Source: Oscillibacter sp.
GTDB taxonomy: Bacteria > Bacillota > Clostridia > Oscillospirales > Oscillospiraceae
DNA: 64,000 nt
Direction of reading: 5' to 3'
NCBI GenBank assembly: GCA_017526785.1
Contig: JAFXQV010000021.1
Span: forward strand, 1-64,000
Below the pieces are notes generated by a model that was not told the origin of the DNA, ran no database searches, and saw only the letters and a list, made by a program, of their open reading frames with translations. The position numbers and the translations under genes were made by a program. Shown here piece by piece: positions 6,998 through 21,044 of the stretch. Every line of letters begins with the position of its first letter. Position 1 is the stretch's first letter.

Positions 6998-9985
6998 TCA
7001 GCGGAGGACGGCGTTGAGGCTCTCGCGCAGGGCGTCTAAAATCTTCGTGACGGCCTCTTCGACTTCGGCGGCGGTCAAACTCCGCTCGTCGGAGCGGAAC
7101 GTCAGATTGAAGGCGACACTCTTCTTGTCGGCGGGAATGCCGGGGCCGGTGTAGATGTCGAACAGAGACACGGCTTTGAGCAGTTCCGTGCCGGATTGAC
7201 GGATAACGTCGCGGAGTTCGGCGACGGGCAGAGCCTTGTCACAGACCAGCGCCAAGTCACGCGGCACGGACGGGAAGCGCGGCAGGGGCTGATACACGGG
7301 TTCCGCCCCGGCGCAGTCCAGAAGCGCGTCAAGCGAAAGTTCCGCCGTGTAAAGTTCGCCGTCAATGCCGTACGTCTCCGCGACTTTGGGGTGAATCTGC
7401 CCCAGCACGCCCAGATACCGGTTCCCGGCGTACACGTCCGCGCAACGCCCCGGATGATAGGACGGATTCTCACTTTGCGCCGTGTAGCTGACTTCGGGAA
7501 CGCGTAAGCCGTTCAGAATGGCTTCGACCGCGCCTTTGAGCGCGAAAAAGTCCATGTCCGCGCCGTACGCGCCGAGGCAAAGCGTTTTCGGCTCGTCGGC
7601 GAGGCCGTCCCCGCGCGGGAAGTACGTCCGGCCTAACTCGTACAGCTTCACGGACTTGTTGCGGTAGTTCCAGTTGCGGGTCAGAATTTCCAGCATGGAC
7701 GGCAGAATCGTCGTGCGCATAATAGAGCGGTCTTCGCCCAGCGGGTTCAGGATTTTGAGGGACTTTCTAAGCGGGGAATCGTCCGGGAGACGGATTTTGT
7801 CGTAGGCCGCGGGGCTGATGAAAGAATAGGTGATGATTTCGCTGTAGCCGCAGGAACGGCACAGCGCGCCTAACAGGCGTTCCGCTTTCTGCTCCCGCGT
7901 GAAGCCGCGCCGGGCGTTGAGACCGGATGAGAGCGTGTCGGGGATTTCGTTGTAGCCGTGGAAGCGGGCGACTTCCTCCGCCAAGTCCGAATAATGCTCT
8001 ACATCGCCGCGCCAAGACGGCACATGCACATTGTTTCCGTCCAGCTTGAATTCAAGCGAAGTCAGAATGCCGCGCATTTCGTCGCTTGAAATCTCCGTGC
8101 CAAGCAGGCGATTGATTTTTTGGGGTTCGAGCGTCAGCGTGACCGGGGGGCGGTCAGCGGCAATCACGTCAAGTAGGCCTTCGACGACCTCCCCCGCGCC
8201 CAACTGTTCGACAAGTTCGCAAGCGCGTTGCACGGCGCGGAACGTGTTCATGGGGTCAAGGCCTTTTTCGTACCGCGACGAGGCCTCCGTGCGCATGTTG
8301 AGCGCGACGGCCGTACGGCGCACCGACGCCCCGTTAAAGTTCGCCGACTCGAACAGTACCATAGCCGTGTCGCCGATAATCTCGCTGTTCGCGCCGCCCA
8401 TGACGCCCGCCACGCAGACGGGCTTTTCCGCGTCGCAAATGCAGAGCATGTCCGGCGTCAGGGCGCGGGTCGTGCCGTCCAGCGTCCGGATTGTCTCGCC
8501 CTCCCGCGCCGTGCGGACGACGATTTTCCCGCCGTCCACACAAGCGAAGTCGAAAGCGTGCATGGGCTGGCCGTATTCCAGCATGACATAGTTGGTGATA
8601 TCGACAATGTTATTGATAGGCCGTACGCCCGAATTGCGCAGGCGTTCCCGCATCCACTCCGGCGACGGACGGATTTTCACGTTTTTGACCAAGCGCGCCG
8701 TGTAGCGCGGACACAAACTGCCGTCCTCAATCTCAATGTCGAGCAGTTCGGCGATATTCCCGCCGCTGCCTTTAATTTCGGGCTTGTGGTGAATCAGCGG
8801 CTTGTGGAACGTCGCCGCCGCCTCACGGGCAAGTCCGATTACGCTTAGACAGTCCGGGCGGTTCGGCGTGATTTCAAACTCTACCACATGGTCGTCCGCG
8901 CCAATCAAGGTTGCGATATCCGCGCCGGGGTTGTGTTCGCCCGATAAAATCCAGATTCCGTCCGGGATACAGTGCGGAAACTCTTTCTGTTGCGCGTGCA
9001 AGTCCGACAACGTACAAATTTCGTGCCGTTCGGTGTCCCACGCCACAAAGTCCCCGACGTGCAGATTGTGCAGGCGGCTTTCGTCCATTTCCATTTCCGC
9101 GCCGCCGACATTCAGCGTGGTACGCCAGCAACCGTAAGCGTACTTTTCCAGCGCGGAGACCTTCGCCACAATCACAGGACCGTAAATCTTCATGCCGGGA
9201 ACAAGCTCGGTGCGGAAGTCATCAGGAGAAAACTCATCAGGAGAACAGAGAATTTCCGACGAATGATGACCAATACGGTCGTATTGCCACATACGCGGCA
9301 AATGATAGGCAACCATATCTCCCACATGAAGATTTGAAAAAGCGGTTCCTATAGTAATCGTTGTGTGTCCCCAGTCCAGAGGAATGCCGGGATTCAGCTT
9401 TATGGCGTAACGGAACGGGTTTTCCGATGTGTCAGGAAGCGTTGAAATTTCCAGTATCTCCCCAACGGCAATTTCTTCGGAGAGTTTTTGTCCGGGTTTT
9501 ATGCCAACCGGAATTGACCGCTTCGCCGGGTCAAGGGGGTGGTAGTCGTCCAGAATCGCGGCCGGATTGATAACCGCTTCGGGGTAGTCATGCTCGACGG
9601 TCAAGCCCAATTCTTTCAGGGAGCAGTACATTCCATCAGACATGACGCCGCGCAGTTCGCCGCGCTCAATCGTTTTCCCGCCGGGGAGCAGTGCCTTGTG
9701 AAGCGCCACCGGCACAAAGTCGCCCTTGTGGACGTTCCACGCGCCCGTTACAATCTGCACGGGCTTCGCCTGTCCAACGTCCGTCTGGCACACCCACATA
9801 TGGTCGGAATCGGGGTGGCGTTCCATGGACAGCACACGCCCCACCACCACGTTTTTCAGGGATTCGTTGAGAATCTCCGTGGCCTCGACCTTGGAGCCGG
9901 ACAATGTCATAGCGTCCGAAAACTCGCGGTCGCCCACGTCCGACAAGTCCACGAACTCACGCAGCCACTTTCTTGAGAGTTTCAA
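6998..9985 (-). CDS. pheT: Phenylalanyl-tRNA synthetase beta subunit with a ~200-residue insertion
   Basis: Beta subunit of the heterotetrameric enzyme charging tRNA-Phe; contains the editing site. Domains in order: N-terminal EMAPII/OB tRNA-binding domain (about 40-130, 'VGRVLSMERHPDSD', 'CSLKELGL'), an insertion (about 133-335), then B5/B3-B4 and the catalytic-like core ('VEFEITPNRPDCLSVIGLAR' at 368 onward, 'GLDPMNT'), and the C-terminal ferredoxin-fold anticodon-binding domain ('FPSVPRDLALV'). At 995 residues it is about 190 longer than the usual 790-810. The start is TTG with GGAGGTGG upstream, 14 bp after pheS. The reading frame is intact throughout. Confidence 0.95.
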   Translation of the reverse strand: MKLSRKWLREFVDLSDVGDREFSDAMTLSGSKVEATEILNESLKNVVVGRVLSMERHPDSDHMWVCQTDVGQAKPVQIVTGAWNVHKGDFVPVALHKALLPGGKTIERGELRGVMSDGMYCSLKELGLTVEHDYPEAVINPAAILDDYHPLDPAKRSIPVGIKPGQKLSEEIAVGEILEISTLPDTSENPFRYAIKLNPGIPLDWGHTTITIGTAFSNLHVGDMVAYHLPRMWQYDRIGHHSSEILCSPDEFSPDDFRTELVPGMKIYGPVIVAKVSALEKYAYGCWRTTLNVGGAEMEMDESRLHNLHVGDFVAWDTERHEICTLSDLHAQQKEFPHCIPDGIWILSGEHNPGADIATLIGADDHVVEFEITPNRPDCLSVIGLAREAAATFHKPLIHHKPEIKGSGGNIAELLDIEIEDGSLCPRYTARLVKNVKIRPSPEWMRERLRNSGVRPINNIVDITNYVMLEYGQPMHAFDFACVDGGKIVVRTAREGETIRTLDGTTRALTPDMLCICDAEKPVCVAGVMGGANSEIIGDTAMVLFESANFNGASVRRTAVALNMRTEASSRYEKGLDPMNTFRAVQRACELVEQLGAGEVVEGLLDVIAADRPPVTLTLEPQKINRLLGTEISSDEMRGILTSLEFKLDGNNVHVPSWRGDVEHYSDLAEEVARFHGYNEIPDTLSSGLNARRGFTREQKAERLLGALCRSCGYSEIITYSFISPAAYDKIRLPDDSPLRKSLKILNPLGEDRSIMRTTILPSMLEILTRNWNYRNKSVKLYELGRTYFPRGDGLADEPKTLCLGAYGADMDFFALKGAVEAILNGLRVPEVSYTAQSENPSYHPGRCADVYAGNRYLGVLGQIHPKVAETYGIDGELYTAELSLDALLDCAGAEPVYQPLPRFPSVPRDLALVCDKALPVAELRDVIRQSGTELLKAVSLFDIYTGPGIPADKKSVAFNLTFRSDERSLTAAEVEEAVTKILDALRESLNAVLR
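8981..9589 (-). other. Insertion in PheT resembling two extra OB folds
   Basis: Residues about 133-335 of PheT have no counterpart in the standard protein. Within it, residues 173-228 ('IAVGEILEISTLPDT'...'NLHVGDMVAYHL') and 265-318 ('IYGPVIVAKV'...'NLHVGDFVAWDT') mimic the order of the native tRNA-binding fold at 45-95 ('VVVGRVLSMERHPDS'...'NVHKGDFVPVAL'). I read this as two degenerate copies of the OB fold. The coding DNA here is visibly less GC-rich around 9180-9500 than the rest of pheT. Confidence 0.6.
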
Positions 9986-11252: not shown

Positions 11253-12086
11253 TCAGAACAGATTATAGACGGGTTCCCACATGGTGACAGTCCAGCGGGG
11301 CATGCGCTTTGTGCCGTTGTACAGGTCGGCGGTGTCGGACCATGTCAGCAGGGACACCGGAAAGAGTTCGTCAATGAGTGCGTCGGCGGCGGGTTCGCGG
11401 ACGCCGAATGGGTACGCGAAACAGGTCGGGGCAACGCCTAATTCTTCTGTAAGGCGGTCGTAACTCTTCTGGATGTCGTCCAGAACGCGTGACTGGAAAT
11501 CGGCGTCGGATTCGCCGTCGAGGCGCTGAATGCCGTTGGGTTCGCCGGGCTTGTAGGAGCCGTTCACGTCGAGATTGTGGAGCTTGTAGGTGTGGGAGCC
11601 GATTTCGACCAGCCCGGAGGCGTTCATCTCGCGGTACATGTCCCACGAACAGAACTCGGTCGCCAGCAGATCCGGCATGCAGACAATGGGGCAAATGACG
11701 GCCTTGAAGCCGTATTCTTGCAGAATCGGGAACAGGAGATGATAGTTACTCGCGTAGCCGTCGTCGAAGGTAATCAGAATGGGCTTTTCGGGCATGGAAT
11801 CGGGGTCGAGGAGTTCGCGGGGGAGGACGGGCGTGTAGCCCTGCTTGCGGATGTAGTCGAAGTCCTGACGGAGTTTGGAGGGCGTGACGGTCATATCGTT
11901 GCAGTCGGAGCCGTCGGGGAGCATGTGGTGATACATCAGAATCGGCATGGGCTGGCGGTAGGGGTCGAGTTTGAACTTCCAGACGACCTTATCGCCGTAG
12001 AACACGCCGAACAGCAGGCACAGCGCGAACAGCGCGAACAGTCCGAAGCCGAATAAGGGGCGCGGGGACATGGATTTCCGTGTCAT
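11253..12086 (-). CDS. Polysaccharide deacetylase (NodB/CE4 family), membrane-anchored
   Basis: Predicted extracytoplasmic carbohydrate deacetylase. Residues about 11-30 form a signal-anchor helix, followed by 'PILMYHHMLPDG', the metal-site motif 'ITFDDGYASN' (TFDDG, motif 1), 'GSHTYKLHNL' (motif 2, H-x4-H) and 'FAYPFG' (motif 3 RxPY/F-like). 277 residues. Start chosen at ATG 12086 because it gives a normal signal anchor; an in-frame start at 12188 lies upstream of the promoter at 12135-12163. Substrate (peptidoglycan or another glycan) cannot be told from sequence. Confidence 0.88.
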   Translation of the reverse strand: MTRKSMSPRPLFGFGLFALFALCLLFGVFYGDKVVWKFKLDPYRQPMPILMYHHMLPDGSDCNDMTVTPSKLRQDFDYIRKQGYTPVLPRELLDPDSMPEKPILITFDDGYASNYHLLFPILQEYGFKAVICPIVCMPDLLATEFCSWDMYREMNASGLVEIGSHTYKLHNLDVNGSYKPGEPNGIQRLDGESDADFQSRVLDDIQKSYDRLTEELGVAPTCFAYPFGVREPAADALIDELFPVSLLTWSDTADLYNGTKRMPRWTVTMWEPVYNLF

Positions 12087-12134
12087 GGGACATACTTCTT
12101 TCTTAACATGGGATGTTTCCGGGCATACCGACAC

Positions 12135-12163
12135 ATGATAGCACAAGAAAACCGAATTGTAAA
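12135..12163 (-). promoter_or_regulatory. Promoter of the deacetylase-pheST transcript
   Basis: Reverse-strand TTTACA (12158-12163), 17 bp spacer, TATCAT (12135-12140), about 50 bp before the start at 12086. It is divergent from the rplU promoter 33 bp away. Confidence 0.65.
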
Positions 12164-12195
12164 CGGTATTTTTGCAAAAAAAGCACAAAAAAGCG

Positions 12196-12224
12196 TTGAC
12201 AATTCGGGCGCGGACTGGTATACT
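12196..12224 (+). promoter_or_regulatory. Promoter of rplU-prp-rpmA
   Basis: TTGACA (12196-12201), 17 bp spacer, TATACT (12219-12224). One mismatch from consensus; the untranslated leader is about 75 nt. Confidence 0.8.
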
Positions 12225-12229
12225 TTGAA

Positions 12230-12300
12230 AACCGCTTTGAACGGGTCACAAGCGCGTCCCGGACGCCGCCCGCGAGAGCGAGACCGTCATAAAGGAGAGA
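12230..12300 (+). ncRNA. Probable L21 leader (autoregulatory 5' UTR)
   Basis: The leader of rplU can fold into two small hairpins: GCGTC-CCG-GACGC, and CGC closing a GAGA (GNRA-type) tetraloop, with flanking GGTC/GACC that could pair around both. Firmicutes carry a structured L21 leader at this position. I did not align it to the published model, so the assignment rests on position and foldability. Confidence 0.45.
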
Positions 12301-12308
12301 GCCAGTAA

Positions 12309-12620
12309 ATGAACGCGATTATTGTCACCGGAGGGAAACAGTACAAGGTCGCCGAGGGCGATGTTATCTACATTGAGAAGCTCGAACAGGAAGCGGGCGA
12401 CACCGTGACCTTTGACCGGGTACTCGCCATTCTGGACGGCGAAAACCCCCGCTTCGGTACGCCCGTCGTGGAGGGCGCGTCCGTCGAGGGCAAGATTGTC
12501 AAGAACGGCAAGGGAAAGAAAATCCGCGTGTTCAAGTACAATCCCAAGAAGGGCTACCGCCGCCGTCAGGGACACCGCCAGCCCTATACCAAAGTCGAAA
12601 TCGGCAAAATCAGCGTCTGA
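12309..12620 (+). CDS. rplU: 50S ribosomal protein L21
   Basis: Large-subunit protein, 103 residues. '[20 protein letters not shown]' at the N-terminus and '[20 protein letters not shown]' followed by [10 protein letters not shown] are diagnostic. First gene of the rplU-prp-rpmA operon; AAGGAGAG precedes the start. Confidence 0.98.
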
Positions 12621-12621
12621 C

Positions 12622-12957
12622 ATGACGACTGTCAGATTCCGTACCGACCGGGACAGGATTACCGGATTCACCTGTCAAGGCCACAGCGGACACGCCGAGG
12701 CCGGACGGGATATCGTATGCGCCGCCGTGACGAGCGCCATACGGTATCTGGAAGCCACGGTCAACGACGTGTTAGGTCTCGCGGCGTCGGTACGGGTTCG
12801 GGAGGCGGAAACGCCGTCGATTGCGTTCCGTCTGCCTGGCGGGCTTTCCCCGGAACTGGAGGAGACCACACAGGCCTTGATGGCGGGGCTGATGGTCTAC
12901 CTTTCGCAGTTGCACAGCGAGTACCCGGATTCCGTGGAAGTCTACGAGGAAGCGTGA
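12622..12957 (+). CDS. prp: Ribosomal-processing cysteine protease Prp
   Basis: Cysteine protease that removes the N-terminal extension of L27 in Firmicutes and relatives. The 111-residue product has the conserved '[20 protein letters not shown]', where the histidine and the cysteine are the catalytic pair. It starts 1 bp after rplU's stop and lies between rplU and rpmA, the conserved arrangement. The downstream L27 carries a matching cleavable N-terminus, so enzyme and substrate are encoded side by side. Confidence 0.95.
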
Positions 12958-12986
12958 CGAATTACGATAAGAAGGGGGACTTCACC

Positions 12987-13268
12987 ATGATTCAGATTGG
13001 TTTGCAATTTTTCGCCCACAAAAAGGGCGGCGGCTCCACGAAAAACGGCCGCGACTCCAAAGCCAAGCGTCTGGGCGCAAAGCGCGCGGACGGCCAGTTT
13101 GTCAAAGCCGGCAATATTCTCGTACGCCAGCGCGGCACCCGGATTCATCCCGGCCTGAACGTCGGCATTGGCAGTGACGACACGCTCTACGCCCGTGTTG
13201 ACGGAAAGCTCCGTTTCGAGCGTCTGGGACGCGACCGGAAGCAGGCCTCTGTCTACGTCGCCGAATAA
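12987..13268 (+). CDS. rpmA: 50S ribosomal protein L27 with cleavable N-terminus
   Basis: 93-residue large-subunit protein whose mature N-terminus reaches the peptidyl transferase centre. The product begins [24 protein letters not shown]; the nine residues before AHK match the Firmicutes extension removed by Prp. '[15 protein letters not shown]' is the conserved core. AAGGGGG precedes the start. A terminator follows. Confidence 0.97.
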
Positions 13269-13278
13269 CACGCCAACA

Positions 13279-13316
13279 GCCCCCGCGAGACAGGTTATCC
13301 CTGTTCGCGGGGGTTT
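13279..13316. terminator. Terminator between converging rpmA and argF
   Basis: Long stem (CCCCCGCGA...ACAGG with CCTGT...CGCGGGGG, 13280-13313) with one mismatch and a 5-nt loop, followed by TTT on the plus strand. It separates rpmA from the 3' end of the arginine operon. Confidence 0.8.
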
Positions 13317-13322
13317 GACATG

Positions 13323-14303
13323 TCACGTCATCATCTCGTACATCACGGCTTTAATGGTGTGCATGCGGTTTTCGGCCTCGTCGAACACGATAGAGCGCGG
13401 CGACTCAAAAACTTCGTCGGTCACTTCCATGGCGTCGCGGTGGAAGCGTTCGCCCATTTCGCGCCCGATATCGGTTTTGCGGTCGTGGTACGACGGCAGG
13501 CAGTGCATGAAGCGGCACTGTTCCCCGGCTCTGTCCATGAGCTCCATTGTCACCTGATACGGCGCTAAGGCGTCGATACGTTCCTGCCAGACTTCGACGG
13601 GTTCCCCCATCGACACCCAAACGTCCGTGTAGAGGACATCCGCGCCCCGTACCGCGTCGGCGGGGTTCTCCGAGAACTCTAAAACGGCTCCCGTCTCCTT
13701 CGCGATTGCCTGACAGGTCTTGACCAGTTCCGCGCCCGGCCAGTAGGCTTTCGGCGAACACGCCACAAAGTGCAGTCCCATTTTGGCACAGCCCACCATG
13801 AGACTGTTCCCCATGTTGAAGCGGGCGTCCCCTAAATAGACCAGTTTCGCGCCGGACAGCTTCCCGAAGTGTTCCCGAATGGTCATGAAGTCGGCCAGAA
13901 CCTGCGTCGGGTGGAACTCGTCCGTAAGGCCGTTGAACACCGGAACCCCGGCGTAGCGCGCGAGTTCGTCCACGATACACTGTCCGTAGCCGCGGTATTC
14001 GATGCCGTCATACATGCGTCCGAGGACACGCGCCGTGTCGGCGATACTCTCCTTGACGCCCATCTGGCTCCCCGTGGAAATGTAACTGCTCCCCATGCCG
14101 AGGTCACGCGCCGCCACTTCAAACGCGCAACGCGTCCGCGTGGACGTTTTCTCGAAAATCAGCGCGACGTTATTTCCCTCTAAATAGCGGTGGGGAATAC
14201 CGGCTTTCTTTTTGGCCTTGAGGTCGACGGCGGTGTCCAAGAACTGTTGAATTTCCGCCGGGCTAAAGTCCAGTAACTTCAAAAAGTGCTTGTGATTTTC
14301 CAT
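13323..14303 (-). CDS. argF: Ornithine carbamoyltransferase
   Basis: Cytoplasmic enzyme forming citrulline from ornithine and carbamoyl phosphate. 326 residues with the carbamoyl-phosphate-binding 'STRTR' (about 54-58), 'HPTQVLADF' and the ornithine-site 'MHCLPS'. Last gene of the arginine operon, 43 bp after the TIR gene; CGGAGG precedes the start. The catabolic form is unlikely since no arcA or arcC is present and all neighbours are biosynthetic. Confidence 0.96.
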
Positions 14304-14346
14304 GGGATTCCTCCGTTTTTACTCCCAGTTTCAGGGGGGAAAATCG

Positions 14347-16686
14347 CTATTTGACGATAAAGCTAATAAAAGAGCGGTCGTCATAAGAACAGTTCCCCTC
14401 GCTGATGCCTTTCGTTCCGCGAAGCTGGTACATACATTCCCGGTCTTTTTCCAGATTCTTTTGCAGATACGCTTCCGTCTCTTCCAAAGAATCGAACAGA
14501 ACCGGGTAGCCGTCGCTTGCCAGCACCACATGGTCACCCTTCTGGACAAGCTCAATGTCTACGTGTTGCGGATAGATTGTGCCGCCGTCTAAAACGTCAT
14601 AGCTGAACGACCACTCTTTATTGGCCAGAATGGACTGCTTTTTCAAGAACGGAAGAATTTCCTGCCGCCCAAGGCTGGAATCATAGGCCGCGCCCGTATC
14701 CATGCAGGTCTGCCGCTGAACTTCCAGGCAAAACGCCCGCAGACCGCCCAGCAAAATGTCGACGTTTTTATTATTGTCATAGTTGATTTGGTTAATGCGG
14801 AATTTGCAGTCCCCGAACCCCCAGATTTCCCGGCGATAGACGCTGAAAATAACCACGCTGGCCTGCAAGCGTTCTTCCGGCGGGAGGTTTTCCCATCCCG
14901 TGGCGTAACAATCCCGGATTTTGGCGTTCAGGTATTCTATCGCGTCAGCGGCTTTCATGTCGTAGGGCATGGAGATGATAGCGTCCTTCAGAAGCTGGGC
15001 AACATATACGTCTCCCGGCTTGCCGTCCCACAACATTTCACCCTTTGGAGTGGCACCGTCTATCACTGCGATATAATAGGGTGTTTTCACAATCGCGTCT
15101 CCGCAAACGGAGCCGCTCCCATCCTTTGCCACCACTTTCTCGGATTCCTCGAACGGCTTGCCCGTGTGACGGTTCAAAATGATGATTCCGATAGTTTCCA
15201 GATAAGCGGCGGTGGCGGCAATCGCTTGTGGAAGGAAACGCTCGCGGTTGCTAAGGATAAAGCGCCCGCAGTCATCCGCCGAGACGATATACTTCCCGGC
15301 TACCTCAATGGCGTCGTCTTTGCCCCGCAAGTTCCGGACATTCTCCTCTAAAGAAAGTCCCTGCCTGAGTGCGACCGAAGTGGAGATTCCGATTTCCAGA
15401 TTGAAATTGTTCACGAACAAATCATAGAAACGAATGCTCTCCGGCCGAATCAGGGGATACCGCACGCCCAGTTCTTCTCTTAAACCGCGTTCGACTGCCT
15501 TGGTCATCCGCACGTCTTTTTCATCGTCGTCATAGTCGCTGACGGAAATGCCCTCTATCACAGAAACGGCGTACTTCACCTCTCCGTATGTTTCCGCCGC
15601 GTTCGTGGAGCGGGCAGTCAGCAGCAGCGAAATGTTGCCGTGTCTGTCGTAGTCCAACAGCAGAAGATTGATTGCGATAGAGGTGAGGAATATCTTATAG
15701 GGGCCAATATCCGTGTAACGGATTTGCGAGAGAAACGCGTCGCCCTGTTCGCGGATTAAGGCCTTGCAGACTTCTTTCATCACGCGGTGGGTATAATAAT
15801 CGGTGACGAACAAATCTATCCACAGTTCCGGCGTCTCGCTGGTATCCTCCGTCCGCCCGAAGGGACGGATTTTCTCGACGCCATACTTCTCGTTATTGAA
15901 GTAACAGCCGTTGGTCTGCTCAAGGAAGTTCTGAAGGACAGCTTTCTTGGCGCTTTCAATGCGCTCCGGCAAATCCGAAATCGGAATCTGCTGGACAAAG
16001 TCACGCGGAGACATTCCGAAGCAGGTTTCTTCCGGCTTGAAATGCTGATTTGCCCATTTTTTCTGCGCGTCTGTCAAGCCCTCGCGGGGCGGCGTGAGAA
16101 AGAAGGAATTGCCGGAAAGGTGGATTTGCAATGTATGGCCGTCCGTATAATAGGGGTCCCCACAAGCAATTCGGCGAATGTCCAAATCGCTGTAGGATAA
16201 CGGGGCAAATTCTCGTTCCGGCGGTATAGGGGAGGGGGGTATATGAGACCATATCCAATCCGCGATATTGTGGAGGCTTTCGTTATCCAGATGATAGGCG
16301 GACATAATCTGAATATCGGAAAGCATGAGGGCGTATTCACTGGAGAGCTTCCGGCGGTCAATTTGAACCGGCAGAATGGACTTTCCCAATTTGATGGAAT
16401 ACTTGAGTTCCTTCTTGACCCACCGGGAAAGCATGGAGTTTCCGGAAAGCAACAGAACTACAACTTTACAGCTTTCCAAATTTTCCCCGCTGGCTTCCGT
16501 ATCCGCCGGTTCCTCCTGTCCGTCGGCACCCGAAAGTGCGTTGCTGATGTTATGCGCGAAATTGCTGCCGCCTTCCAGTGTATACGGCGCGTACCATACG
16601 TTAAGCTGCTGGGAGGACAAAAACTGATACAAGCGCTCCGCATAATCTGCGTCTTTATGTGAATAGCTGATAAAAACGTCCGGCAT
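14347..16686 (-). CDS. TIR + Nudix-like + PP2C-like multidomain protein
   Basis: A 779-residue cytoplasmic protein with three recognisable parts. Residues 1-150 are a TIR domain: 'DVFISYSHKDADYAERLYQ' and 'SRWVKKELKYSI', where E93 fits the NADase glutamate. Residues about 330-480 resemble a Nudix fold with a degenerate Nudix box ('ERGLREELGV' at 399-408, first E of REUxEE replaced by G). Residues about 525-779 look like a PP2C/PPM phosphatase: 'AVIDGA' (D543), 'GFGDCKFRI' (D626), 'VLASDGYPVLF' (D725), 'YDDRS' (D769-D770). It sits between argD and argF with 23 and 43 bp gaps and its own AAGGAGG, so it is co-transcribed with arginine genes. I know of no characterised protein with this architecture; an immune or stress-signalling role is inference. 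Confidence 0.8.
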   Translation of the reverse strand: MPDVFISYSHKDADYAERLYQFLSSQQLNVWYAPYTLEGGSNFAHNISNALSGADGQEEPADTEASGENLESCKVVVLLLSGNSMLSRWVKKELKYSIKLGKSILPVQIDRRKLSSEYALMLSDIQIMSAYHLDNESLHNIADWIWSHIPPSPIPPEREFAPLSYSDLDIRRIACGDPYYTDGHTLQIHLSGNSFFLTPPREGLTDAQKKWANQHFKPEETCFGMSPRDFVQQIPISDLPERIESAKKAVLQNFLEQTNGCYFNNEKYGVEKIRPFGRTEDTSETPELWIDLFVTDYYTHRVMKEVCKALIREQGDAFLSQIRYTDIGPYKIFLTSIAINLLLLDYDRHGNISLLLTARSTNAAETYGEVKYAVSVIEGISVSDYDDDEKDVRMTKAVERGLREELGVRYPLIRPESIRFYDLFVNNFNLEIGISTSVALRQGLSLEENVRNLRGKDDAIEVAGKYIVSADDCGRFILSNRERFLPQAIAATAAYLETIGIIILNRHTGKPFEESEKVVAKDGSGSVCGDAIVKTPYYIAVIDGATPKGEMLWDGKPGDVYVAQLLKDAIISMPYDMKAADAIEYLNAKIRDCYATGWENLPPEERLQASVVIFSVYRREIWGFGDCKFRINQINYDNNKNVDILLGGLRAFCLEVQRQTCMDTGAAYDSSLGRQEILPFLKKQSILANKEWSFSYDVLDGGTIYPQHVDIELVQKGDHVVLASDGYPVLFDSLEETEAYLQKNLEKDRECMYQLRGTKGISEGNCSYDDRSFISFIVK

Positions 16687-16709
16687 ACTTCCGCCTCCTT
16701 GGTATAATT

Positions 16710-17888
16710 TTAAACGAGCGCTTGCTTCATAATAGCGAGGCCTTTGTCCATTTCGTCTTTCGTGACGACCAGCGGCGGCAACAGACGCATGCCCACGCCC
16801 GCCGTCAGTACCAGTAAGCCGTTGTCAATCAGACGGCCGGCAATGTCGCGGTTGCTGTAGCCGTCGTTGACGGCAATGCCAATCATTAAGCCCAAGCCGC
16901 GCGTCTTGCCGAAACAGGGCAATTGCAACGCCTCAATGGATTCCCGGAGATACTGCCCCTTTTTCGTGACTTCTTCAAGGAACGTGTCGCTTAGCGTCTC
17001 CTGCACGACGAGCGCGGCGGCGGCGCATACGGGATTCGCCCCGAAAGTCGTTGCATGCGTGCCGGGGCCGAGTACGTCGCGGCACTTTTCGTTAGCCAGA
17101 ATGCCGCTCATGGGCAGTCCGCCCGCGATACCTTTCGCGAACGTCAGCGCGTCGGGCTGTACGCCGTACTGCTGGAACGCGAACAGCGTACCCGTACGCC
17201 CGACGCCCGTTTGCACTTCGTCGACCAGCAGAAGCCAGTCACGCTCCGCGCAGAGTTTCGACAGCGCCGCGACGTATGCTTTGTCGAGCGGCAAGACGCC
17301 GCCCTCTCCCTGCACCAGTTCCACGAGAACGGCGCACACGTCCTCCCCGGCGGCGGCGTTGAGCGATTCCATGTCGTTGGCGTCGGCGTAGCGGAAACCC
17401 TCCGTGAACGGGAAAAAGTAGTTGTGAAAGACTTCCTGCCCGGTGGCCTTTAGCGTGGTAATGGTGCGCCCGTGGAACGAATTTTTGAGGCTGATAATCG
17501 TGGCGCGTCCCTGCCCGTAGCGGTCAAAACTGTATTTCCGCGCCAGCTTGATTAGACCCTCGTTGGCCTCGCCGCCGCCGTTGGCGAAAAACGCCGCGCT
17601 CATCCCAGTGCGCTTGCAGAGGATTTCCGCAAGCCGCGCCGCCGGTTCCGTGTAGAACAGGTTCGAGACGTGGCCTAATTTTCTGGCCTGCGCGGCGATT
17701 GCCTCCGCCCACGGCTGACAGCCGTACCCCAAATCACAGACGCCGATTCCGCTTGTGAAGTCGATATACTCCCGTCCTTCGGGGTCATAGAGCCGCGCCC
17801 CCTCCCCGCGGTCAATCACGACCGGGAAACGCCCGTACGTCGGCATAATGTACTGTTGGGTCAAAGCCCGGATTTCGTCGGATGTCAC
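16710..17888 (-). CDS. argD: Acetylornithine aminotransferase
   Basis: PLP enzyme converting N-acetylglutamate semialdehyde to N-acetylornithine. 392 residues, class III aminotransferase: 'FTSGIGVCDLGY', 'FANGGGEANEGLIKLARKYS', 'DEVQTGVGRTG', and 'FAKGIAGGLPM', whose lysine binds PLP. Member of the arg operon, after the alpha/beta hydrolase gene. Confidence 0.96.
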   Translation of the reverse strand: MTSDEIRALTQQYIMPTYGRFPVVIDRGEGARLYDPEGREYIDFTSGIGVCDLGYGCQPWAEAIAAQARKLGHVSNLFYTEPAARLAEILCKRTGMSAAFFANGGGEANEGLIKLARKYSFDRYGQGRATIISLKNSFHGRTITTLKATGQEVFHNYFFPFTEGFRYADANDMESLNAAAGEDVCAVLVELVQGEGGVLPLDKAYVAALSKLCAERDWLLLVDEVQTGVGRTGTLFAFQQYGVQPDALTFAKGIAGGLPMSGILANEKCRDVLGPGTHATTFGANPVCAAAALVVQETLSDTFLEEVTKKGQYLRESIEALQLPCFGKTRGLGLMIGIAVNDGYSNRDIAGRLIDNGLLVLTAGVGMRLLPPLVVTKDEMDKGLAIMKQALV

Positions 17889-17901
17889 GCGCTGTCCCTC
17901 C

Positions 17902-18855
17902 TTATTCGATGTCGATTTGCTGGCCTTGATACAGAGTATTACGGAGCAGTTCGGGGTCGTTGCCCGTGAAAGCCCCTGCCGCCTCGGTATCTCCTTTGAG
18001 TTGCCACATAAACCACGCGGTTACATACCCGTCCGCGCTGTAGAGCATTTCGCCGTGTTCCGCTCCGGTACGCCGCGCCATTGCCTTTTTCCCCGGAATC
18101 TTGCGGTACATTTCCGCCATTTTCTCAAACGGCAGGACAATTTGTGTTTCAAAATCTCCCTCCGTCCCGGCGAACATCAACAGCGGAACGGAGATTTTGT
18201 CCAGTTCGTAATTCCAGCCCAAGGCGCGGGCGGTTTCCTCGTGCGTGGGCGACAGAGCCACCGCCGTTTTGTACAAAGAACGGGATTCGCATACACTGAC
18301 GGCACTGAGAACGCCCGCGCCGCCCTGCGAGTGTCCGGAAATCCCGATATTGTCCGTGTCCAGCTTTCCAAAGAAACCGCTGTCCGGGTCGGCGTTCTGC
18401 TCCAACAGGTATTGCAAGGTCAAGTCCGCGCTTGCGCCCGTTCCCGTGGAGGGGTCTTCGTTGCCCGCGACGACGAACCCCCAAGAGGCCAGATGACGAA
18501 ACAGCGCCCTGTATTTTGAGGCCGGAATCCCCGTGCCGTTGAGAAAGACTACAACGGGGTATTTGCTGTCAGCGCCCCACATTTCCGCCGGGTAATAGAC
18601 CTCGAACTTTTTCAGGGGTTCCGGCGCGGAGATTTTTTTGTGCTTCACTTTCAGGCTTCCGGTTTTGAGATACCGCGCCTCTACTCCGCCGCCTGTTTTT
18701 ACCGTTTCCGTGTACTTGCGCGGCACGGCCGGCCTTATGGATAGCAACAGCAGAAGCGCGGCTATCAGCGCAAGGACTGCCACGACAACCAGCGCGGCGA
18801 TTTTGAACGCTTTCCCCGTTATGCGCCCCGCCTGTTTCACCAAAGAGGAAATCAT
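17902..18855 (-). CDS. Membrane-anchored alpha/beta hydrolase
   Basis: 317 residues with one N-terminal transmembrane helix (about 16-43) and an exported catalytic domain. The nucleophile elbow is 'GISGHSQGGAGVL' (GHSQG), preceded by 'YPVVVFLNGTG' (oxyanion loop region) and followed by 'AGTEGDFE' and 'TGAEHGEML' regions that could supply acid and histidine. It resembles chlorophyllase/dienelactone-hydrolase-type families. Embedded between argB and argD with short gaps, although no link to arginine synthesis is evident. Substrate unknown. Confidence 0.8.
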   Translation of the reverse strand: MISSLVKQAGRITGKAFKIAALVVVAVLALIAALLLLLSIRPAVPRKYTETVKTGGGVEARYLKTGSLKVKHKKISAPEPLKKFEVYYPAEMWGADSKYPVVVFLNGTGIPASKYRALFRHLASWGFVVAGNEDPSTGTGASADLTLQYLLEQNADPDSGFFGKLDTDNIGISGHSQGGAGVLSAVSVCESRSLYKTAVALSPTHEETARALGWNYELDKISVPLLMFAGTEGDFETQIVLPFEKMAEMYRKIPGKKAMARRTGAEHGEMLYSADGYVTAWFMWQLKGDTEAAGAFTGNDPELLRNTLYQGQQIDIE

Positions 18856-18873
18856 TGCAACATCGTCGCCCCT

Positions 18874-19794
18874 TTAATCATCGTAGTGATATTCGGGCGG
18901 CTCTGCGCGGCGGAGCATGTCGCCGAGCGTGGACGTTTCGTCGCGGCGCAACATGGTTCCGATTCCCTCGTCACTGAGAAGCTCAATTAAAATCGAGTGC
19001 GGAATGCGGCCGTCGATAATCTGCACGCGGTCGACGCCGCCGGAAATCGCCGCCGCGCAACACTGGATTTTCGGAATCATGCCGCCGGAGATAATGCCGC
19101 TCTGCATAAGCGCCGGGATTTCCCGCAACTGCACGACGCGAATCAGCGTGTCTTCGTCTTTGGGGTCGCGGAGCAGTCCGCGAACGTCCGTCAACAGGAT
19201 GAGTTTTTCGGCGCGCAAGGCCTCGGCTAATTTGGCGGCGGCGGTGTCGGCGTTGATATTGTAGGCGGTGTCGGCGTCCACGCCCTGCGCGACCGTGGAC
19301 ACGACCGGAATATAGTGGTTCTCCAGCGCGCTTTCAACGGGTTTCGGGTCAACGCCCGTGATACGCCCCACAAGGCCGTATTTCTCGTCGAGCTGTACGG
19401 CCTGAAACAGCGCGCCGTCCATGCCGCAAAGCCCGACAGCCCTGCCGCCCAAGCGGTTAATCTGCGCCACCAAGTCCTTGTTGACCTTGCCGCACAACAC
19501 GGACTGCACAATGTCCATCGTCTCGCGGTCGGTGTAGCGGAGGCCGTCCACGAAACGCGACTGGTGGCCGATTTTCTTTAACATGTCGTTGATTTCGGGG
19601 CCGCCGCCGTGAACCATCACGACGCGGATTCCCACTAAATTCAGCAGGATAATGTCGCTCATGACGGCTTTCCGGAGTTCGTCGGAAACCATGGCGTTTC
19701 CGCCGTACTTGACGACAATCGTTTTCCCGGTGAACTGCTGGATATAGGGCAGGGCTTCCACCAGTGTCCGAGCCTGTACTTCATGGGACGCCAT
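18874..19794 (-). CDS. argB: Acetylglutamate kinase
   Basis: Phosphorylates N-acetylglutamate, second step of arginine synthesis. Amino-acid-kinase fold: 'TIVVKYGGNAM', 'VMVHGGGPEIN', 'GLCGMDG', 'NINADTAAAKLA', and 'LLTDVRGLL'. 306 residues. I start at ATG 19794 because AAGGAG lies 8 nt upstream; a GTG 9 bp further up is also in frame. In this family the arginine-feedback form has an N-terminal helix, and residues 1-20 here could form one. Confidence 0.95.
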   Translation of the reverse strand: MASHEVQARTLVEALPYIQQFTGKTIVVKYGGNAMVSDELRKAVMSDIILLNLVGIRVVMVHGGGPEINDMLKKIGHQSRFVDGLRYTDRETMDIVQSVLCGKVNKDLVAQINRLGGRAVGLCGMDGALFQAVQLDEKYGLVGRITGVDPKPVESALENHYIPVVSTVAQGVDADTAYNINADTAAAKLAEALRAEKLILLTDVRGLLRDPKDEDTLIRVVQLREIPALMQSGIISGGMIPKIQCCAAAISGGVDRVQIIDGRIPHSILIELLSDEGIGTMLRRDETSTLGDMLRRAEPPEYHYDD

Positions 19795-19820
19795 ACGCGC
19801 CACTCCTTCTTTACGGGGTA

Positions 19821-21044
19821 TCAGGTACGGTAGTCCCCGTTGATTTTGATATAGTCATAGGTGATGTCACAGCCCCAGCAGGTACACGCGGCGTCGCCCT
19901 CGCCCATGGCAATGCGGATTTCGATGTCATGCTCTGTGAGAATTTGCTTGGCCTTGTCCTCGTCGAAATCGAGACCGCGCCCGTTGGCGCACACGTCGAT
20001 TTCCCCCGCCGCGCTTGCGAAGGTTACGTTGACCTTGTCGGGGTCGAAGTTCTCCCCGGAGTAGCCCATAGCGCACAGCACGCGCCCCCAGTTGGCGTCC
20101 GCGCCGAAAATCGCGGCTTTCAGGAGCGTGGACGAAATCACGGACTTTGCCACGGTCTCCGCGCTCTTGACGCTTCCCGCGCCGCTAACGGTGCAGGTAA
20201 TTAAGTGTTTCGCGCCCTCGCCGTCGGAGGCCATTTCCCGCGCCAGCCGGACGCACAACGCCTGTAACGCTTCCAGAAACGCGTCATAGTCCGCGCCCTT
20301 GTCGGTAATTTCGGCGTTGCCCGCAAGGCCGTTGGCAAGCACCATGCAACTGTCATTTGTCGACGTGTCGCCGTCCACGCTGATACGGTTGAAGCTGACT
20401 TCCGCCGTTTCGAGCAGCGCGGCGCGAATCATGTCAGGGGATACGGCACAGTCCGTCGTAAGGAAGCACAGCATTGTCCCCATGTTGGGGTGAATCATGC
20501 CGCTTCCCTTGGCGATTCCGCCCAGCCGGACGGTTTTCCCGCCGATAACGGTTTCCACGGCCGCCTCTTTCTTGGCGGTGTCCGTGGTCATGATGGCGTG
20601 GGCGGCCGCGTCGCTGGCCTCCGGGGACGATTCCAGCGCGTCATAGAGTTTTTGCACGCCGCCCTCGATTGCCTCAATGTTCAGCGTCTGCCCGATGACG
20701 CCCGTTGACGACACCAGCACGTCTTCCGGCGCACAGCCGATAACATCCGCCGCCGCCGCGCACATCCGTTCGGCGTACGCTTCGCCGTGGGGGGCGCAGG
20801 CGTTGGCGTTGCCGCTGTTGGCGATAACCGCCCGCGCCACGCCGTTTTTAAGGTGTGCAATGTCGACGTGAACCGGGGCGGCCTTGACGACGTTCCGCGT
20901 GAACACGCCCGCCGCCGCGCAGGGCGTCTCCGAGACAATCAAGGCCACGTCCTTTTTCCAATCGGCGTGGGTCTTGACGCCGACATGGATTCCAGCCGCC
21001 CGGAATCCCTTTGCGGCACATATGCCGCCTTCTATAAACTTCAT
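19821..21044 (-). CDS. argJ: Bifunctional glutamate N-acetyltransferase/amino-acid acetyltransferase
   Basis: ArgJ recycles the acetyl group from acetylornithine to glutamate and can also acetylate glutamate from acetyl-CoA. 407 residues; self-cleavage occurs before the threonine in 'MGTMLCFLTTDC' (family ATMLGF/C), giving alpha and beta chains. 'DGDTSTNDS' is conserved. No argA lies in the window, consistent with the cyclic pathway. Its start overlaps the tfoX-like gene by 4 nt. Confidence 0.95.
   Translation of the reverse strand: MKFIEGGICAAKGFRAAGIHVGVKTHADWKKDVALIVSETPCAAAGVFTRNVVKAAPVHVDIAHLKNGVARAVIANSGNANACAPHGEAYAERMCAAAADVIGCAPEDVLVSSTGVIGQTLNIEAIEGGVQKLYDALESSPEASDAAAHAIMTTDTAKKEAAVETVIGGKTVRLGGIAKGSGMIHPNMGTMLCFLTTDCAVSPDMIRAALLETAEVSFNRISVDGDTSTNDSCMVLANGLAGNAEITDKGADYDAFLEALQALCVRLAREMASDGEGAKHLITCTVSGAGSVKSAETVAKSVISSTLLKAAIFGADANWGRVLCAMGYSGENFDPDKVNVTFASAAGEIDVCANGRGLDFDEDKAKQILTEHDIEIRIAMGEGDAACTCWGCDITYDYIKINGDYRT

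Follow-up and report, generated by a model that had tools for sequence, protein, structure and literature searches.

What does a protein that joins a TIR domain, a Nudix-like region, and a PPM/PP2C-type phosphatase domain in one chain do for its host, and does its position among arginine genes bear on that role? The question is raised by a gene of an Oscillibacter sp. within a 64,000-nucleotide stretch of contig JAFXQV010000021.1 (assembly GCA_017526785.1), hereafter the window. A literature search covering few subscription journals found no paper describing a system of TIR-Nudix-PP2C architecture, in agreement with the initial annotation of the gene. Nudix, TIR, and PP2C domains are each present in described conflict systems, as outlined in PMC9503650, PMC7159879, and PMC10419184.

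Gene structure and distribution of relatives

The TIR-Nudix-like-PPM gene occupies positions 14347..16686 of the minus strand and codes for 779 aa. Its open reading frame starts with ATG and has AGGAGG 7 nt upstream (16694..16699, minus strand), the likely ribosome-binding site. The flanking genes lie on the same strand, argD 23 nt upstream (16710..17888) and argF 43 nt downstream (13323..14303), both named by recognition of their translations, and from this spacing the gene is likely cotranscribed with the arg genes. A pattern scan detected no promoter-like site on the gene's strand between argD and the TIR-Nudix-like-PPM gene, the region as a whole giving 4 sites against 2.3 expected, and an Rfam scan of positions 12000-20000 returned no match.

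A species-genome collection scanned with a four-row PPM alignment yielded 461 relatives. The analysis continued with the best 80, which were ranked by similarity to the PPM domain of the window and therefore give no estimate of frequency. Among the best 80 of 461 were seven full-length TIR-middle-PPM proteins (L010-L015 and L017; 780-847 aa) in records titled Clostridia, Clostridiales, Lachnospiraceae, or Ruminococcus, two of which (L012 and L013) look like near-copies. Since these seven proteins from Clostridia assemblies are full-length and 41-47% identical to the window protein, the 779-aa frame is, by comparison, a real gene, and the collinearity of the homologs exceeds what chance would give.

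The gene is rare among bacteria. Of 300 family genomes, its own alone had a full-length match to the whole protein, and four others matched in the TIR domain only. A profile of the middle region matched two of 394 genomes of the order (its own and apparently that of L014), one of 391 of the class (its own), and nine of 398 of the phylum (its own and eight distant matches, four of these at E 1e-4 to 1e-3), the family, order, class, and phylum samples overlapping in part. Carriage by phages or plasmids was considered and set aside: viral contigs held no confirmed relative, and tblastn gave matches to the PPM domain only, in three plasmid records (E 2e-18 to 2e-28) and one phage-labelled contig.

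The argD-argF junction as an insertion site

Among the 61 genomes of the genus, 59 had an ArgF locus, the window's own included. The best 20 of the 59 ArgF loci were compared, one being the window itself and another (L163) ending before argD. In all 18 checkable congeners argD was adjacent to argF, with 19-281 nt between the aligned ends and no match to the TIR protein between the two genes; in the closest of them (L155, ArgF 97% identical) the distance was 21 nt. On the evidence of these loci and the open reading frame list, argD and argF are the borders of the insertion. The GC content of the inserted gene is 0.516 compared to 0.568-0.619 for eight neighboring genes. The initial annotation had asked for a search for the three-domain architecture and its genomic contexts, which placed the seven full-length relatives beside other, unrelated genes (by eye). 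A tie to the arginine state of the cell, which the annotation had considered, was not borne out: argD and argF adjoin without the gene in all 18 checkable congeners and the relatives have other neighbors, which speaks against arginine coupling via the operon. The arg operon most plausibly served the gene as a landing site. Empty sites, low GC, and differing neighbors speak for horizontal acquisition of the gene, a reading to which, jointly with the TIR-effector model set out below, we give somewhat less than an even chance.

Further unusual reading frames were observed in the window. A second non-arginine gene, an alpha/beta-hydrolase-like ORF (by eye; 17902-18855, minus strand), separates argB from argD in this gene run, so that the arg operon may take cargo more than once. 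A PheT-like ORF (6998-9985, minus strand) codes for 995 aa and, judged by eye against the usual size, seems to be longer by about 200 residues within the N-terminal tRNA-binding part.

The TIR domain and a candidate effector role

The TIR domain spans residues 1-145 (16252..16686, minus strand) and was matched by Pfam TIR_2 (PF13676; E 2e-16, 61 bits, cut-off 28) and ThsB_TIR (PF08937; E 2.4e-08, 34.7 bits, cut-off 21.2) as well as by PADLOC TIR models. A variable acidic insert at residues ~51-68 separates the two matched halves of TIR_2 in the alignment. Glu93 (codon 16408..16410, minus strand), singled out as conserved from the single sequence, is indeed invariant together with Trp89 in 8/8 full-length members, the window included; we take it to be the catalytic-type Glu of TIR NADases. 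Compared with the PDB, the TIR profile retrieved TIR-STING, bacterial TIR, and SARM1 chains at weak E-values (best 0.00031).

Our preferred reading, a tentative one, is that the gene alone provides a TIR effector of the kind used in bacterial immunity, gated by a Nudix-like/PPM core. The TIR domain would be the effector and, as its fold and Glu93 suggest, would cleave NAD+ once switched on. That it is carried as a single gene, occurs patchily, and has a TIR domain of catalytic type suggests that this effector is self-contained. Counting against the model, the TIR domain has the lowest mean pairwise identity of the fusions (0.43 versus 0.51-0.55 elsewhere), and no defense genes were recognized by eye near the seven full-length relatives.

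The genome of the window also holds further TIR_2 matches, including G000:C31:36294-37087, G000:C1:40798-41731, and G000:C1:84689-85666. At three places in this genome two TIR matches lie near each other, one match being under the cut-off.

A Nudix-related middle region without the Nudix box

The middle region consists of an N-terminal half (residues 160-331; 15694..16209, minus strand), which has a TDYYTHRV motif and is common to the stand-alone proteins L174-L177, and a Nudix-like part (residues 332-508; 15163..15693, minus strand) defined by profile comparisons. A similarity of the TDYYTHRV motif to CED-9 (E 0.89) was taken as chance. Searched alone, the middle region gave no match in Pfam, NCBIfam, or PADLOC, and its profile retrieved no Nudix chain from the PDB. 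A profile of residues 320-508 (8 rows) matched 30 Nudix references from related genomes at E 4.2e-05 (probability 70%), the score of 34.7 comparing with no more than 20.3 when the columns were shuffled 200 times and with 11.8 on reversal.

The middle profile also retrieved stand-alone proteins of 352-423 aa, which were treated as set dA (L178-L181) and set dB (L174-L177). Set dA matched both the middle region (E 1.2e-13) and Nudix (E 1.2e-06); L179 exceeded the Pfam NUDIX cut-off (23.3 versus 21.1 bits), L178 fell below it (18.8 versus 21.1), and L180 and L181 had no Pfam NUDIX match. Set dB matched the middle region at E 2.8e-24, chiefly in its N-terminal half, and profile comparisons gave no match between set dB and Nudix or between the two sets; L174 and L175, the dB members scanned, had no match in Pfam. 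Through these distant stand-alone relatives the middle region is, at the level of profile comparison, Nudix-related.

The box itself has decayed further than first described. The initial annotation had noted a Nudix-box-like segment lacking one key Glu, and the kinship stands, but in the helix-like segment R400-G-L-x-E404-E405-L-G not only does Gly401 occupy the second-Glu position of the REUxEE box, the GX5E part is also out of register. RExxEE occurs in none of 19 family rows (leaving out the near-copy L013), 11 of which have RGxxEE, compared to R[E/Q]xxEE in 30/30 Nudix references and the full box GX5EX7REUxEExGU in 27/30; in L174-L177 even the RGxxEE helix is absent. These counts weigh on the make/erase/respond unit originally envisaged, in which an ADP-ribose-type signal would be produced by the TIR domain and degraded by the Nudix domain, with the PPM domain responding by dephosphorylating proteins. 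The three domains needed are all present, and since E378, E404, and E405 are invariant in 8/8 fusions an altered or unusual metal site could remain, but the complete absence of RExxEE from the family rows, set against R[E/Q]xxEE in every reference, and the loss of even the RGxxEE helix in L174-L177 make hydrolysis of a TIR product by the middle region unlikely. The unit was thus not borne out, and we regard it as improbable.

With the Nudix box lost, sensing is likelier than erasing. Under the TIR-effector model, the Nudix-like domain would most likely bind a nucleotide-type ligand and act as the gate. The NUDT9-H domain of TRPM2 is an ADP-ribose-sensing Nudix domain. NrtR likewise has an ADP-ribose-sensing Nudix domain, the fold being used as a ligand sensor according to the account in PMC9503650. 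The role proposed here resembles these cases in its use of the Nudix fold as a sensor and differs in that the Nudix-like domain is coupled to TIR and PPM domains instead of DNA binding or a channel. The stand-alone Nudix-like relatives that were searched had no PPM or TIR gene within 11-13 kb (3.3 kb for L174), which counts against the TIR-effector model.

The PPM/PP2C-type phosphatase domain

The C-terminal domain (residues 516-779; 14350..15141, minus strand) was assigned to the PPM/PP2C type by tblastn, profile comparisons, and Asp motifs. Its profile matched 28 PP2C references at E 1.7e-07 over 227 columns, scoring 57.2 compared to a maximum of 24.4 in 60 shuffles; in the PDB it retrieved only two mycobacterial PstP-type chains, both weakly (E 1.1 and 1.5). 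The window protein alone had no Nudix or PP2C match in Pfam, PF13672 failing to match its own PPM domain, and the same model reached E <=0.1 in 24 of 58 members of the PPM family (best 1.7e-07). The three domains originally described were accordingly all recovered, TIR by Pfam and the Nudix-related middle and PPM by profiles and relatives.

The Asp motifs that had been read from the single sequence were confirmed by Asp530, Asp543, Asp626, Asp725, and Asp769/Asp770, invariant in 8/8 fusions; seven of the eight were fetched with SDG/DD patterns, outside which Asp530, Asp543, and Asp626 lie. Across the PPM family, D530 was kept in 56/58 and D543 and D626 in 58/58, as were D725 and D769/770, a count that is biased since the SDG and DD motifs were part of the patterns by which most of the relatives were retrieved. 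Judged from these motifs, the domain looks catalytically intact.

The same conservation could be taken to mean that the PPM domain is itself the effector, being activated by infection and stripping phosphate from essential proteins or nucleotides, with the TIR and Nudix-like domains as the sensing and signaling half. With a mean pairwise identity of 0.55 the PPM domain is the most conserved one in the fusion, and its Asp motifs are retained, but the close stand-alone relatives L016, L018, and L019 stand alone beside housekeeping-type genes, so that the domain does not look toxic, and known effector activity belongs to the TIR domain. We consider this reading very improbable.

No second member of the PPM family was found in the window's genome. 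Elsewhere, stand-alone PPM genes are mostly beside housekeeping-type genes (by eye), the neighbors clustering within related genomes; the PPM family is therefore not defense-specific, a point against the TIR-effector model. In Bacteroides (L037, L041, L048, L051, and L056) members of the family are fused in one ORF to a glycerophosphodiester phosphodiesterase (GDPD)-like domain (by recognition). A phosphatase that regulates ordinary physiology or a stress response would fit such surroundings, with the PPM domain as output, the Nudix-like domain as a nucleotide sensor, and the TIR domain serving assembly or signaling and not immunity: a trmB-like gene (named by recognition) adjoins stand-alone PPM relatives at 6 loci, GDPD-like fusions occur at 5, and no defense genes were recognized by eye near the full-length relatives. 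Set against this are the patchy occurrence, with only its own genome positive among 300 of the family, the absence of the gene from the site in 18/18 checkable congeners, and the invariance of the catalytic-type Glu93, and we hold it to be rather unlikely.

Pairing of the PPM family with other partners

The PPM gene of Acetoanaerobium (L006) shares its border, by overlap, with the end of a gene that codes for two apparent membrane segments (2TM, by eye) and a Nudix-like domain. One further PPM locus, L031, has a 2TM-Nudix-like gene recognized by the family HMM (E 2.4e-78), again overlapping and in reversed order compared to L006. The 2TM-Nudix-like family matched set dA at E 3.3e-09; a direct comparison with the middle region gave no match (E ~0.02), which counts against the TIR-effector model and leaves the link between the two dependent on set dA, and set dB had no profile match to the 2TM family. 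The PPM tree groups the seven fused rows with the stand-alone L016 (97/89) and places L006 and L031 apart, and 21% of the bootstrap trees show the 2TM pairing arising once. Also counting against the model, the 2TM-Nudix-like genes of L152 and L153 had no PPM gene in the stretches fetched. The 2TM-Nudix-like profile had no match in the 398 phylum genomes, an empty answer that is uninformative since the sample lacks a positive genome. As the 2TM-Nudix-like family, in place of TIR, pairs with the same PPM family at two other loci, the comparison suggests a shared sensor/phosphatase core with exchangeable effectors.

Other arrangements were observed around these families. At L070 a TIR gene overlaps the PPM gene, which likewise fits exchangeable effectors. 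On a Eubacterium eligens plasmid (L153, 3989-6235) the ORFs of the 2TM-Nudix-like family are split; after them come an ORF of 391 aa, which by eye looks HATPase-like, and a STAS-like gene (DUF4325), an order that recalls partner-switching systems. In Chloroflexota and Hymenobacter (L066, L071, and L082) a protein of ~250 aa with an apparent membrane segment is encoded directly before the PPM gene or overlapping it; those of L066 and L071 had no Pfam or PADLOC match, and the protein may be another PPM partner.

Comparison with known defense systems

The window protein resembles Thoeris ThsB and other TIR NADases/cyclases in its TIR fold (Pfam and PADLOC models) and conserved Glu, and differs from these defense proteins in being one chain with Nudix-like and PPM parts. 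No ThsA was recognized beside the TIR gene, the neighbors being argD and argF in the window and unrelated genes at the seven relatives (by eye), and the closest NCBIfam Thoeris model scored 21.5 bits against a cut-off of 220.

CBASS Cap16 is outlined as a 2TM-NUDIX effector (PMC10419184). On that outline, the likeness lies in a Nudix-type domain joined to an effector part, which in the relatives at L006 and L031 also takes the form of two apparent membrane segments with a Nudix-like domain, while the window protein has TIR and PPM domains instead. The defense NUDIX models of PADLOC matched neither the middle region nor L006, L031, or L152, and no CD-NTase was present among the neighbors read, those of the window being arg genes.

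In the kinase-kinase-phosphatase (KKP) system, as summarized in PMC11341870, a PP2C (PF13672) phosphatase keeps the toxic component in check, and a phage protein can bind and disarm this phosphatase. The same off-switch role is proposed here for the PPM domain, and this precedent of a PF13672 phosphatase restraining a toxin makes it reasonable, the difference from KKP as summarized there being a TIR domain instead of kinases and a single chain. The two Ser/Thr kinase genes of such a system are absent next to the window gene, which adjoins argD and argF.

A proposed phosphatase-gated switch

Taken as a whole, the TIR-Nudix-like-PPM protein is probably a self-contained defense-type switch. In the TIR-effector model the PPM domain would set the gate, most likely as an off-switch relieved by infection, and would act by removing phosphate from the ligand or from the protein itself. 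The gene order at L006 and L031 may mean that the Nudix-like/PPM core is separable from its effector. A bolder and, in our judgment, doubtful extension is that a portable core of degenerate-Nudix sensor and PPM control is plugged into different killing parts and so constitutes an immune switch of a new, modular kind. The killing part would be a TIR domain that cleaves NAD+ and shares the chain in the present case, and an effector with two membrane segments, encoded by a separate gene, at the other loci; cell shutdown would depend on the phosphatase's state and involve no separate signal synthase.

If the model is true, phosphatase-gated TIR immunity would be a new control of NAD+-depleting defense that dispenses with a partner gene, and a Nudix domain would have been reused as a sensor after its catalysis was lost. 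The analysis also opens two families that lack names to testing, one Nudix-like with RGxxEELG and one of PPM type with SDGYP...DDR, the latter with 461 encoding stretches in the genome collection.
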